The notes beneath the pieces are model-generated. The model worked only from the letters and a program-made list of their open reading frames with translations, searched no databases and was not told the origin of the DNA. Positions 2,250 to 57,282 of a stretch of 64,000 nucleotides of DNA are shown one piece after another (within the stretch, counting starts at the first letter, position 1; each line of letters opens with the position of its first letter). Source of the DNA: Arthrobacter sp. AQ5-05 (GTDB lineage: Bacteria > Actinomycetota > Actinomycetes > Actinomycetales > Micrococcaceae); NCBI RefSeq assembly GCF_003287975.1, contig NZ_QMKQ01000007.1, forward strand, positions 62,001 through 126,000, read 5' to 3'. The position numbers were made by a program, and so were the translations under genes.

Positions 2250-3581
2250 CTAGAAGGCCTCGGAGAGCCGCGGGGTGCCCAGCTTGCCGTCGCGCACCGT
2301 GGGGTGCCCGTGGAAGAACACGTGGGTGACCTTGCCCGGCAGTTCCAGTCCCTTGAACGGGGAGTTCCGGCCCTTGGTGGCCATCGCGTACGGGTCCACG
2401 ACCCAGCGGGCCTCGGCATCCACCAGTGTGATGTTTGCCGGTTCGCCCACGGCCAGCTCGCGGCCCTGGTCGGTGAGCCGGCCAATGGCCGCCGGGGCGG
2501 TGGAGGTGATGCGGGCAAAGTCGGCCCAGGTGATCAGCCCGGTCTCGACCATGGTGTGCTGCACGACCGAGAGCGCGGTTTCCAGCCCGGTCATGCCCAT
2601 GGCCGCCGCGGCCCATTCGCATTCCTTGGCCTCGGAGGGGTGCGGTGCGTGGTCGGTGCCGATGATGTCGATGGTGCCGTCTGCCAGTCCGGCACGCAGC
2701 GCCATCACGTCGGTCTCGGTGCGCAGCGGCGGGTTGACCTTGTAGACCGGGTCGTAGCTGGAGACCAGTTCGTCGGTCAGCAGCAGGTGGTGCGGGGTGA
2801 CCTCGGCGGTGACGTTGACGCCGCGGGACTTGGCCCAGCGGATGATCTCCACACTCCCGGCGGTCGAGACGTGGCAGATGTGCAGGCGGGAGCCCACGTG
2901 TTCCGCCAAGAGCACGTCGCGGGCGATGATCGATTCCTCGGCGACCGCCGGCCAGCCGGCCAGTCCGAGCACCGCGGAGACCTCGCCCTCGTTCATCTGG
3001 GCGCCCTCGGTCAGGCGCGGTTCCTGGGCGTGCTGGGCGATGACGCCGTCGAACGCCTTCACGTACTCCAGGGCGCGGCGCATGACCAACGGGTCGAAGA
3101 CGCAGATGCCGTCGTCGGAGAAGACCCGGACCTGTGCGCGGGAGTCGGCCATCGCGCCGATCTCGGACATCTGCTTGCCCTCAAGCCCGACGGTGACTGC
3201 GCCCACCGGGCGCACGTCGACCCAGCCCGAGCGCTTGCCCAGGGACCAGACCTGCTCGACGACCCCGGCGGTGTCCGCCACGGGGTTGGAGTTCGCCATG
3301 GCGTGCACGGCGGTAAACCCACCCAGGGCGGCGGCGCGGGTGCCGGTCTCCACGGTCTCGGCGTCCTCGCGGCCCGGTTCGCGCAGGTGGGTGTGCAAAT
3401 CGACCATGCCCGGCAGGGCGATCTGCCCGGCGGCCTCGATCACGGTGGCGTTGGCGGCAGCCGGGTGCGTTGCGGCGTCGGCGCCCAGGGCGGCGATGGT
3501 GCCGTCGTGGACCAGGATGTCGGTTCCCTGGTTGCCCAGCGGCTTGGCGCCGCGGATCAGGTAGGTGGTGTTGGTGCTCAT
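2250..3581 (-). CDS. pyrC: Dihydroorotase, type I
   Basis: This 443-residue zinc amidohydrolase cyclises carbamoyl-aspartate to dihydroorotate. The metal site HTHLREPG lies near residue 62, and the late IIGTDHAPHPSEAKE carries the catalytic aspartate near residue 308. GFTAVHAMANSNP is typical of the type I (PyrC/AllB-like) branch. The ATG at 3581 was chosen because MSTNTTYLIRGAKPL fits the family and the longer reading frame upstream runs antisense through pyrB. Its stop is directly followed by the next start at 2249. It lies 20 bases after pyrB, which fits one transcript from pyrR to carB. Confidence 0.97.
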   Translation of the reverse strand: MSTNTTYLIRGAKPLGNQGTDILVHDGTIAALGADAATHPAAANATVIEAAGQIALPGMVDLHTHLREPGREDAETVETGTRAAALGGFTAVHAMANSNPVADTAGVVEQVWSLGKRSGWVDVRPVGAVTVGLEGKQMSEIGAMADSRAQVRVFSDDGICVFDPLVMRRALEYVKAFDGVIAQHAQEPRLTEGAQMNEGEVSAVLGLAGWPAVAEESIIARDVLLAEHVGSRLHICHVSTAGSVEIIRWAKSRGVNVTAEVTPHHLLLTDELVSSYDPVYKVNPPLRTETDVMALRAGLADGTIDIIGTDHAPHPSEAKECEWAAAAMGMTGLETALSVVQHTMVETGLITWADFARITSTAPAAIGRLTDQGRELAVGEPANITLVDAEARWVVDPYAMATKGRNSPFKGLELPGKVTHVFFHGHPTVRDGKLGTPRLSEAF

Positions 3582-54494: not shown

Positions 54495-55222
54495 CCAGTT
54501 TCCCCCGGCTCCTTCCCGTCCAAGAAAGCGGCAGCCTGAGAGTGACCTCGTGGACCCTCCCCGGGGCGAGGAAATGTCCAATGTCCCGTCAACGTTCGTG
54601 GCACGGGCTTTGAGTCCCTCGATGCCGCTTCCGGTTGCCGGGTCCACTCCCCCCGATGCCGTCGTCAAGCACGCTGAGCACCAGCTGCTTCCCGATCCCT
54701 GCGGTGGCGACCTTCATGGTGATGCGTGTGCCTCCGGAGTGCTTGGCCGCGTTGTTCAGCAGTTCCGCGGTGCAGAAGTACGCGATGGCCTCGATCGCCG
54801 GGCTGGGGCGGGAAGCCGGCGAATAGGTCAGGGACACGGGCATCGGGCCGCCGCAACCAGCGATTCCAGCGCCGTGTCCAGGTCATCGTTGATGGCGGCG
54901 GGCCGGATGACGCTGGCCAGGCCGCGCAGGTGGTTCAACGCATCGGTTGCCGCTCCTTGTCGGCAATGCTCAGCCCGATGACTGTCACCAGGAGGGATGC
55001 ACCCAGCGAGATCATCAGGATGGCATGGGTGAATCCGAAAGGAGCATGGAACAGCATGGCCCAGTGGTAGGCAAAGGCTCGCCAGGTTTTCTTCTTGAAG
55101 AATGCCGGCACGAACTTTTGGTCCTTTACTACCGCGAAACGAGGGTCAGCATGGGTTTCGATTGCGGCCAGGGGCGACCCTGTGGGGATGATTTCCTGCT
55201 CCGATGCGAATGAATTGCCATT
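54495..55222 (-). pseudogene. Sensor histidine kinase, internally deleted and frameshifted
   Basis: The N-terminus (MNGNSFASEQEIIPTGSPLA, then a membrane stretch including FGFTHAILMISLGASLLVTV) looks like the putative-sensor domain of actinobacterial kinases. It is joined near 54940 to a dimerisation remnant (DALNHLRGLASVIRPAAIND) and a HATPase piece (AELLNNAAKHSGGTRITMKV, VLDDGIGG), with frame changes near 54940, 54840, 54650 and 54560. Most of the sensor and dimerisation regions are gone. It was the partner of the broken regulator directly downstream. The 3' end is approximate. Confidence 0.78.
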
Positions 55223-55531
55223 CATGCTTCCTGGCATTCTACGGAAAAGCCCCGCTGGACATGGGGAAAGCCACCGGGACACCCGGGGGTTGTCCCCCGA
55301 GTATCCATCGTTCCGCACATCACCGTTTCCATTAGGGCCCCAAGGATTCACCTAGGGTTAGGGCCTTAACCTTGGGCAACGGAGGCTTTGCCCAAGGTTA
55401 AGGCTCTAACCTTGGATAAGGATCCGATAAACCAAGGTTAAGTACCTAACCTTGGATAAGATAAGAATCGGCCAAAGTTACGGACCCCTGCTTTTGGCAA
55501 AGGATGCGTACACCAAACGTTAGGAATGCGG
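55223..55531. other. Intergenic region upstream of the Fic gene
   Basis: These 309 bases hold no gene. The second half contains the 40-bp-periodic dyad array (55352-55511). The first half (55223-55351) has only short GC-rich palindromic runs. Base composition drops from the flanking high GC towards the Fic gene. Confidence 0.7.
55352..55511. repeat. Four-unit, 40-bp-periodic array of CCAAGGTTA-N6-TAACCTTGG dyads
   Basis: Units begin at 55352, 55392, 55432 and 55472, exactly 40 bases apart. Each has a left arm, a six-base variable centre and a right arm, then a 16-base spacer. Units two and three are perfect (9-bp arms). Unit one differs at two arm positions, both leaving G-T pairs. Unit four is more diverged (left arm CCAAAGTTA, right end CTTTTGG). 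A partial fifth left arm (CCAAACGTTA) is at 55513-55522. Adjacent units also pair: TAACCTTGGGCAA (55367-55379) with TTGCCCAAGGTTA (55388-55400). The array ends at the Fic start. Confidence 0.85.
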
Positions 55532-56776
55532 ATGCAAACGCTGTGGCCAATCCACGGAACGGAGCACCAAACCTGGAGTCCAAGCGGGCAGGGACCCAAG
55601 GAAGACCGAATCTTTTCCGTCTTTCAAGCCAGCATTCCACCTTTCATCGCCAACACGGATTGGGTTCCCACAGCGGAACTCTCCACTCTGTGTGAAACTG
55701 CTGTCATTGCCATCACCCGGCTGGATGCCAAGGCAGGTTTGCTGCTATCACCATTGACAGCGTTTTTGCTGCGCAACGAAGCAGAGTCCTCTTCGAAAAT
55801 CGAATCCGTCGAAGCCCCCCAAATCGACCTCGCGCGAGCTGCGCTCGGCATAAGATCCAGCGACCATGCCAAGTCCACTGTTGCTGCTGCCGATGCAATC
55901 GAGGATCTCATCCTTGCCGCCGAGAACCGAAACCCTGCCGACGAAGAAGCCTTGACGGACGCACACCGGATCCTCATGAAGAATGATCCGACGGAAATGA
56001 AACATGCCGGCACGTTCCGGGACGTCCAAAACTGGATCGGCGGTTCCGACTACTCCCCGAGGAACGCGGTGCACGTTCCTCCGGCACCTGCTCGCGTTGG
56101 ATCGTTGATGGACGACCTGCACGTTTTTTGTTCCCGCACCGACCTACCAGTCCTAGCGCAAGCCGCACTCGCGCATGGCCAATTTGAAAATATCCACCCT
56201 TTTACCGACGGCAACGGCCGCATCGGCCGGGCACTGATCAACGCCATTCTTCGCCATCGGGGCCTCACTCAATCTGCCGTCATTCCGATTGCTTCGGCCT
56301 TCGCCGCACGACGGGACTGGTATTTCGAAGTGGTCAGCGCCTACCGTGCCGGGCAGGCCTCACTGCTGGTGGAGTTCCTTGCCAGCAGCGCAATCGTAGT
56401 GTGCATGGAAGCGGAGGCCTCGGCGCTCACCCTCGCCGAGCTGCCTGAGCAATGGCGCGAAAAGGCCAAGCCGCGTGGCGGTTCAGCCGCAGCACTATTG
56501 ATCGATTCGCTGCTGGCAACTCCACTGATCACGGTTGAATCCGCCGCATGGCGTCTGGGGCTGAGCGAAACTGCCGCCAACTCCGGGATCCAGAAACTCG
56601 TTGAGACGGGAGTGCTCAAATTCGTGGGCCGCGGGAAACGCGATCAAGCGTGGAGTGCATCCGACGTCACCGACGAGGCGGAGGGCCTGGTGCAGCGCAT
56701 CGGCGAACATCGCGAATACCTGTTGACACCGAATGTACGGGCCCATCTGTCCAAACGCGGGCTGCTGGGCTCCTGA
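55532..56776 (+). CDS. Fic/DOC-family protein (AMPylase-like) with N-terminal Fic_N and C-terminal winged helix
   Basis: This 414-residue protein has a Fic_N-type helical start, the inhibitory-helix region SSSKIES near residues 86-92, and the catalytic motif HPFTDGNGRIGR from residue 222, matching HPFxxGNGRxxR. The C-terminal 110 residues resemble a winged helix (ESAAWRLGLSETAANSGIQK). Such enzymes transfer AMP to proteins. ATG at 55532 is preferred over 55526 because AGGA lies six bases upstream. GC content is visibly lower than the flanks, suggesting acquisition. It follows the dyad array, which the winged helix might bind (inference). No antitoxin partner gene is present. Confidence 0.9.
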   Translation: MQTLWPIHGTEHQTWSPSGQGPKEDRIFSVFQASIPPFIANTDWVPTAELSTLCETAVIAITRLDAKAGLLLSPLTAFLLRNEAESSSKIESVEAPQIDLARAALGIRSSDHAKSTVAAADAIEDLILAAENRNPADEEALTDAHRILMKNDPTEMKHAGTFRDVQNWIGGSDYSPRNAVHVPPAPARVGSLMDDLHVFCSRTDLPVLAQAALAHGQFENIHPFTDGNGRIGRALINAILRHRGLTQSAVIPIASAFAARRDWYFEVVSAYRAGQASLLVEFLASSAIVVCMEAEASALTLAELPEQWREKAKPRGGSAAALLIDSLLATPLITVESAAWRLGLSETAANSGIQKLVETGVLKFVGRGKRDQAWSASDVTDEAEGLVQRIGEHREYLLTPNVRAHLSKRGLLGS

Positions 56777-56829: not shown

Positions 56830-57282
56830 ATGGAACCCAGGGTGAATCTCAGCAAGTCCGATCCTGCTGCGTATGCGGCGCTGTTGGCCATGAACAAGGC
56901 CGCCAGCGATTCTGCCGATGCCGCAGGAATTGATCCCAAGCTTCGCGAGCTGCTCAAGGTGCGGGCCTCGCAAATCAATGGCTGCACCTATTGCCTGCGC
57001 ATGCATACCCGCGATGCCCTGAAACTCGGTGAGAGCACCGATCGCCTGGCGCTGGTCTCCGCGTGGGCCGACTCCGAATACTTCACGGCCGTCGAACGCG
57101 CGGCCTTGGCATTGTGCGAGTCCATCACCATGGTCTCGGTGGACCACGTCCCGCATGGGGTGTACACCATGGCCCGGGCGGTGCTTTCCGACGAGCAGAT
57201 CTCAGCCGTCGCCTGGCTGAGCGCGGCCATCAACATGTTCAACCGGGTCGCGATCACTTCCCGCTACCCGGTCAAGCCCTAG
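56830..57282 (+). CDS. Carboxymuconolactone decarboxylase / AhpD-like protein
   Basis: This 150-residue helical protein has the AhpD-type redox motif CTYCLRMH, with Cys52, Cys55 and His59, in SQINGCTYCLRMHTRDALKL. Members of this branch reduce peroxides or act as general thiol peroxidases; the alternative decarboxylase role needs different residues. The ATG at 56830 has no visible ribosome site. It overlaps the convergent response regulator by four bases at the shared CTAG. Confidence 0.87.
   Translation: MEPRVNLSKSDPAAYAALLAMNKAASDSADAAGIDPKLRELLKVRASQINGCTYCLRMHTRDALKLGESTDRLALVSAWADSEYFTAVERAALALCESITMVSVDHVPHGVYTMARAVLSDEQISAVAWLSAAINMFNRVAITSRYPVKP

Follow-up and report, generated by a model that had tools for sequence, protein, structure and literature searches.

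A half-site array adjoins a Fic gene

Why does an array of inverted repeats, recurring every 40 bp, stand directly before a Fic gene in Arthrobacter sp. AQ5-05, and what reads it? We analysed the array in a window of 64,000 nucleotides (the whole stretch of DNA under study), where it sits between a divergent short open reading frame (ORF) at 54935–55351 on the minus strand and the gene for a Fic protein of 416 amino acids at 55526–56776 on the plus strand. The original prediction placed four units at 40-bp steps, and these starts (55352, 55392, 55432 and 55472) were correct, but its description of every unit as a dyad held only in part. Unit 2 (55392–55415; CCAAGGTTA-AGGCTC-TAACCTTGG) and unit 3 (55432–55455; CCAAGGTTA-AGTACC-TAACCTTGG) have two perfect arms, and unit 1 (55352–55375; CTAGGGTTA-GGGCCT-TAACCTTGG) combines a left arm with two mismatches and a perfect right arm, whereas unit 4 (55472–55497) has a left half-site with one mismatch, CCAAAGTTA, and a right arm, CCTGCTTTTGG, that is degenerate and shifted. 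A last weak left half-site, CCAAACGTTA (55513–55522, plus strand), lies 41 bp past the left arm of unit 4 and adjoins the start codon. The geometry is one of 9-bp arms separated by gaps of 6 and 16 bp.

Searching for the dyad CCAAGGTTA-N6-TAACCTTGG with up to three mismatches returned three matches in the window, all in the array (55352, 55392 and 55432, with two, zero and zero mismatches, respectively); unit 4 was not recovered as a dyad at this threshold, and no match arose when the window was dinucleotide-shuffled 100 times. Throughout the organism's own genome (4.65 Mb in 116 contigs), the dyad at up to three mismatches marked this single locus. We therefore rejected a dispersed repeat, a MITE or a CRISPR as the identity of the array, and the dispersed repeat family that had been raised as a reading opposed to an operator was not found in this genome. 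Twelve units from eight genomes of the genus gave mean information of 1.77 bits for the arms, 0.97 for the centre and 0.54 for the spacer, in line with the claim that arms are kept while centres and spacers vary; these units were picked by eye and broken ones were excluded, a bias that favours the arms.

Units 1 and 2, together with the spacer between them (GGGCAA-N8-TTGCCC), make up one near-perfect 28-bp hairpin (55352–55420). This exceeds the symmetry that an operator needs, and inverted template switching may be how the array expanded. No sigma-70-like promoter was detected in 55200–55600. The divergent short ORF looks like a cut-down sensor protein with no clear family; its start region is kept in three genomes of the genus (G022, G094 and G126) and absent in three others (G156, G180 and G190), in which the flank reads into what we take to be thrS.

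As predicted, the array ends at the Fic start region. The start codon is either the ATG at 55526 or an alternative at 55532, which is better spaced from the AGGA at 55522. The encoded protein matched PF02661 (E 2.6e-18) and carries the Fic motif HPFTDGNGR. In class II (N-terminally inhibited) Fic proteins, the inhibitory helix reads (S/T)xxxE(G/N). The likely counterpart here is S89xxxE93, in which S89, S90 and the glutamate E93 were invariant in 26 sequences, and the residue after E93 is S rather than G or N. The catalytic motif, defined as HXFX(D/E)GNGRXXR (PMC9755527), is present as HPFTDGNGRIGR, with most core residues invariant across the same number of sequences. A putative winged helix is assigned to the C terminus from a weak Pfam match to HTH_24 (E 0.097, under the family cut-off), from an alignment to PDB 7cb8 that spans residues 1–393 and so includes the C-terminal region (E 5e-98), and from the names of relatives. 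PDB 7cb8, a ‘Fic-domain containing protein’, is the closest solved relative by sequence, and we found no paper mentioning both this code and Fic in the literature searched. The best PADLOC match was SoFic (E 3.6e-59), and no obvious antitoxin partner lies next to the gene among ORFs of at least 80 amino acids. The next gene, at 56830–57282 on the plus strand, encodes an AhpD-like protein; it was found in all 15 genomes of the genus and served as a syntenic anchor outside the operator model.

The lattice recurs before related Fic genes

Fic matches were present in 71 of 197 genomes of the family and in 92 of 396 of the phylum. We used 83 of the 92 family matches, excluding nine that were partial, broken or remnants. 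Because we placed the expected starts by the ends of alignments, some upstream windows are misplaced. Within −150 to +30 of the expected start, 50 of the 83 genes had an inverted repeat scoring at least 10, compared with 7 of 83 control segments at −500 to −320 and 0.8% of 664 dinucleotide shuffles. The arms of these repeats vary between loci (CATACCAAAGGCTA-N6-TAGCCTTTGGTATG, ATTTTCCCATTA-N7-TAATGGGAAAAT, AAGTGATAGT...ACTATCACTT and others).

Spacing was the common feature. Ten-mers repeated in the same orientation at 39–41 bp with at most one mismatch occurred at 35 of the 83 loci, 48 loci having none at that threshold; each of six other distance triplets yielded direct 10-mer repeats at only 1–3 of the 83. 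For this count only, near-duplicates were collapsed by joining loci with a common 15-mer, and 29 of the resulting 57 non-redundant clusters carried the repeat. By distance, same-way ten-mers lay 39, 40, 41 and 42 bp apart at 10, 12, 18 and 4 loci, respectively. Single-base shuffles served as the control for three further measures. Direct repeats at 38–42 bp numbered 44 versus 1.8 in shuffles; symmetry axes were spaced 19.5–20.5 bp apart in 24 counts at 21 loci, where shuffles gave 0.2 and the background was 0.11 per half-step; and chains scoring at least 4 were found at 42 of 83 loci versus 25 of 249 shuffles. With weak half-sites counted, the longest chain among the 83 loci is that of the Arthrobacter sp. 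AQ5-05 genome (G000), with a score of 8. As for genomic controls, tiles of the window (n = 244, mostly coding) gave 19, 0 and 3 repeats at 39, 40 and 41 bp, the excess at 39 bp probably being a codon effect; 83 coding starts gave 1, 0 and 0; and 83 distal control segments gave 2, 4, 1 and 4 at 39, 40, 41 and 42 bp.

Seventeen genomes encode two or more Fic paralogues, and in 16 of them the best inverted repeats of the paralogues differ, which agrees with each Fic protein reading its own operator. The exception is G151, whose two paralogues share one repeat, and in several multi-Fic genomes one paralogue has no clear repeat. Upstream of the closest Fic gene of another genus (L005; 60–61% identical), the inverted repeat is weak, with a score of 5.

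The same spacing appeared farther afield. Among 114 phylum rows we took 29 new loci (one more lacked upstream DNA) and then 39 of the other 84, setting aside a 40th stretch, L156, which repeats L127. The 29 loci had repeats at 40 bp in eight cases and at 41 bp in four, with counts of 0–3 at other distances; the 39 more distant loci had them at 40 bp in five and at 41 bp in eight, with counts of 0–2 at distances of 30–38 and 43–49 bp. Some of these loci, such as that of G709 (CCAAGGTT...AACCTTGG), carry a nearly identical half-site. By contrast with these lattices, 20 short Fic genes, taken from 24 rows whose open frames have fewer than 300 codons and presumed to have no winged helix, showed no inverted repeat scoring at least 10 and no repeat at 39–41 bp when the most upstream ATG or GTG was taken as the start; two of them had a 42-bp repeat. 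The prediction of a cooperative operator for the Fic winged helix thus gained support from comparison of these upstream regions.

We also examined 16 plasmid loci (12 outside Actinomycetota and 4 actinobacterial), drawn from 60 listed of 284 records. Outside Actinomycetota, a Rhodoferax locus had a 40-bp repeat and axes 20 bp apart and a Sinorhizobium locus a 41-bp repeat, Rhizobium and Agrobacterium repeated at 31 bp, one Thermus at 30 bp and Picosynechococcus at 51 bp, and the other six of the 12 loci had no exact 8-mer repeat; this is a mixed picture from too few loci to judge. In the four actinobacterial plasmid loci, no 8-mer recurred exactly at a distance of 40 or 41 bp, and one of them (L231) had axes 20.5 bp apart. 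At three loci on Thermus and Synechocystis plasmids (L221, L227 and L228), the Fic gene adjoins helicase/DUF1156 genes or a restriction S subunit, in a setting like that of a defence island.

DNA has a helical repeat of 10.5 bp per turn. A 40-bp step therefore corresponds to 3.8 turns and a 41-bp step to 3.9, so that successive bound units would face almost the same way, their angle shifting slowly along the array. The proposal that a spacing of four turns places bound proteins on one face is roughly correct, but 40 bp is four turns only approximately. As far as comparison of these loci can tell, the conserved feature is an alternating lattice of half-sites, about 20 bp each, rather than a given sequence.

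Arrays persist where the adjacent Fic gene is lost or a remnant

Across the genus, nine of the 15 genomes have at least three half-sites at the syntenic place. In eight of these the array lies upstream of the AhpD-like gene (G000, G022, G094, G126, G156, G168, G180 and G190), and in the ninth, G197, it lies ahead of a Fic start whose upstream flank we recognised, presumably correctly, as the same thrS side. Only traces were seen in G141 and G074, no array was recognised in G050, G111 or G198, and the contig of G199 stops short of the place. The unit step within the genus is 40 bp, except that G156 has a single 41-bp step and G168 has lost part of its middle unit by deletion.

A whole copy of the Arthrobacter sp. 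AQ5-05 Fic gene exists, among the 15 genomes, only in that strain. Seven array genomes (G022, G094, G126, G156, G168, G180 and G190) have lost this Fic gene or keep a remnant of it. A remnant of the 3′ part adjoining the array is common to G156, G168 and G141, a shorter one occurs in G022, G094 and G126, and none of this Fic gene was detected at E 1e-4 in G180 or G190. In G156 (L045) and G168 (L044), the array has come, through a deletion, to adjoin an open frame of 90 codons that corresponds to only the C-terminal part of Fic. We considered this frame as a stand-alone winged-helix repressor and rejected that identity, because the two copies differ by 16 non-synonymous and only 3 synonymous changes, a pattern that suggests a pseudogene. 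In one unit of G022 (L049), CCAAGGGTA...TACCCTTGG, the two arms have changed in a matching way. G180 (L055) keeps three perfect half-sites in 40-bp register, and a search of its whole genome gave no match to Fic at a threshold of E 1e-4; this is a case that the operator model leaves unexplained.

The array of G197 reads TAACCTTGG-N16-CCAAGGTTG-N6-TAACCTTGG-N16-CCAAGGTTA, followed by 11 bases and an ATG, and thus consists of four half-sites with exact 16/6/16 spacing. The first piece of the Fic gene behind it is 60% identical to that of Arthrobacter sp. AQ5-05 over residues 3–119. The gene lies in pieces at contig ends and may also be broken, because the piece next to AhpD looks internally shortened. 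From the position of this array before an ATG, and from the Fic remnants and losses elsewhere in the genus, our guess is that the ancestral state was a four-half-site operator adjoining Fic, with growth in G000 and repeated loss of Fic elsewhere.

Lattices also stand beyond the genus. In the genome collection, the exact array pattern occurred in three contigs of the genus and in one contig of a metagenome-assembled Propionibacteriaceae genome (L042), and it was absent from the viral contigs searched. The L042 array (3158–3203; CCAAGG-N12-CCTTGG-N16-CCAAGG) is the same core array, and no Fic gene was found in the 8.0 kb searched there (26 Fic queries, E 0.01). An array scan at the level of the order matched 5 of 396 genomes, namely the organism's own and four others at two mismatches; three of the latter (L058, L060 and L061) look like chance, and the fourth (L059, in G422) is a genuine lattice of 40-bp step whose neighbouring gene is not Fic. 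There, at L236:5259–5330, a dyad CCAAGGATA-N5-TATCCTTGG is followed 40 bp on by a second, and more AGTGGGAAGTTAAGTGGGAA-type repeats lie ahead of the likely ATG of an ORF (L236:5278–6936) that we take, by eye, to encode an AlbA_2-type ATPase ending in a winged helix. In the 10.5 kb searched at this lattice we found no Fic gene, and the sole Fic-like match of G422 (E 6.5e-13) is on another contig. The lattice geometry is not exclusive to Fic, because neither the L042 nor the G422 lattice adjoins a Fic gene. It may be common to a wider set of winged-helix self-regulators, a question that two cases do not decide. The expectation that such arrays always precede Fic genes therefore failed, both in these two genomes and in the seven sister genomes in which Fic is lost or a remnant.

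Weighing other explanations for the array

The lattices without a Fic neighbour in L042 and G422, and the seven sister genomes in which the array outlives Fic, would suit an operator for a different regulator, one that acts on the Fic gene and also on a neighbouring gene in sister genomes. We regard this as distinctly unlikely. A shared regulator would keep the arm sequence, yet arms differ between Fic paralogues of the same cell, and Fic clades change arms while keeping the 40-bp lattice; such a regulator is also hard to reconcile with a dyad that marks one locus in its own genome and that matched, at one mismatch among 197 genomes, at most one other place per genome. The Fic-less arrays, moreover, show relic-like decay, the remnant in G156 and G168 changing freely and the middle unit of G168 being partly lost. 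That decay bears as well on a second, Fic-independent use, such as an insulator or a decoy, for which the array would be kept. Mismatches or losses affect most Fic-less arrays and G141 retains a trace only, so we consider such a use quite improbable, even if the three perfect half-sites of G180 and the paired arm changes in the G022 unit speak for it.

We consider it very improbable that the array works in the fic mRNA as an attenuator or structured leader, and this was unsupported as its main role. The predicted fold is stable (−86.6 versus −54.1 kcal/mol in shuffles, z −7.9), mostly owing to the 28-bp hairpin of units 1 and 2, but any inverted repeats would give foldability, and the inner half-sites are complementary to both neighbours and therefore cannot all pair together. 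We found no terminator and no matching Rfam family, and a constant spacing of 39–41 bp over unrelated sequences suits DNA geometry better. Nor does a recombination, partition or mobile repeat element, which we judge extremely improbable, fit a pattern that occupies a single locus in its own genome, that was found exactly in three contigs of the genus, one Propionibacteriaceae contig and no viral contigs, and whose lattices track Fic genes; what favours this early guess of recombination or partition is the resemblance of fixed-spacing repeated dyads to such sites.

A candidate self-operator

In our view the array probably is an operator for the Fic gene next to it, and its reader would be the putative winged helix at the C terminus of that same Fic protein. 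Self-reading is favoured because arms drift while spacing stays; the arms may drift with the helix that reads them, and the protein's own dimensions would fix the spacing. The recognised unit would then be a half-site of about 9–11 bp (ATCCAAGGTTA) in alternating orientation, rather than the 24-bp dyad alone. Such alternation would place two-fold axes at 20-bp intervals and half-sites of like orientation at 40-bp intervals. Adjacent half-sites may be occupied by Fic dimers that sit on about the same side of the helix, with contacts across both kinds of axis, and the bound dimers would cover the promoter and turn fic off. The basic operator may consist of four half-sites, as in G197, and in Arthrobacter sp. 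AQ5-05 it would have grown to about eight, for tighter or more switch-like repression.

Known Fic proteins provide partial precedents. Yersinia pseudotuberculosis has a Fic-HTH autorepressor, CccR, which acts via inverted repeats and binds AGATAATCAT-N26-ATGATAATCT in its own promoter (PMC9755527). Our locus resembles it in the Fic domain, the putative C-terminal HTH and the inverted repeats before its own gene, and the dimer binding and negative autoregulation reported for CccR are proposed likewise here by analogy. CccR differs in having just two 10-bp repeats, separated by 26 bp, whereas here about eight half-sites alternate with gaps of 6 and 16 bp and a 40-bp repeat. CbFic2 of Coxiella burnetii has a DUF4172-Fic-wHTH architecture, and DNA binding alters its dimerisation and activity; short DNA duplexes were used in that work, and the accessible text of the report describes no promoter operator (PMC10628234). 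SoFic, the best PADLOC match, and EcSofic are similar in being dimeric Fic proteins with a C-terminal domain, but EcSofic has a downstream antitoxin, AS1, its toxicity needs dimerisation, and an operator is not described in the part of the report that could be accessed (PMC12249575). The view that the array is unlike any described element was therefore half right: we saw no description of a 40-bp array in the literature searched, outside which most subscription journals lay, but self-repression through inverted repeats is known from CccR.

A bolder version of this model, which we consider unlikely, is that the alternating strip is a DNA scaffold on which Fic oligomerises via two two-fold contacts, such that the gene is silenced and the enzyme is held inactive or deAMPylating, as by a DNA-encoded antitoxin. 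The amount of toxin that can be held would then depend on array length, and Actinomycetota Fic-wHTH proteins, perhaps along with other winged-helix self-regulators, would share the 20-bp axis spacing as a structural hallmark. The enzymatic part finds support in CbFic2, which dimerises on DNA and then deAMPylates (PMC10628234), and is disfavoured by the dimer requirement of EcSofic toxicity (PMC12249575) and by the position of the CccR authors, in the accessible text, that regulatory and toxic activities are independent (PMC9755527).

As a self-operator, the array would belong to a kind already known from CccR, and the chain of about eight half-sites on a 40-bp lattice would be a new variant of it. 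Fic relatives are common in this family and phylum, and among Fic proteins we noticed a mapped self-operator for CccR alone in the same, mostly non-subscription, literature. A lattice with 20-bp axes whose letters change predicts binding positions, cooperativity and the spacing of DNA-binding domains, and it makes both the self-control of the toxin and the control of enzyme activity by DNA binding directly testable.
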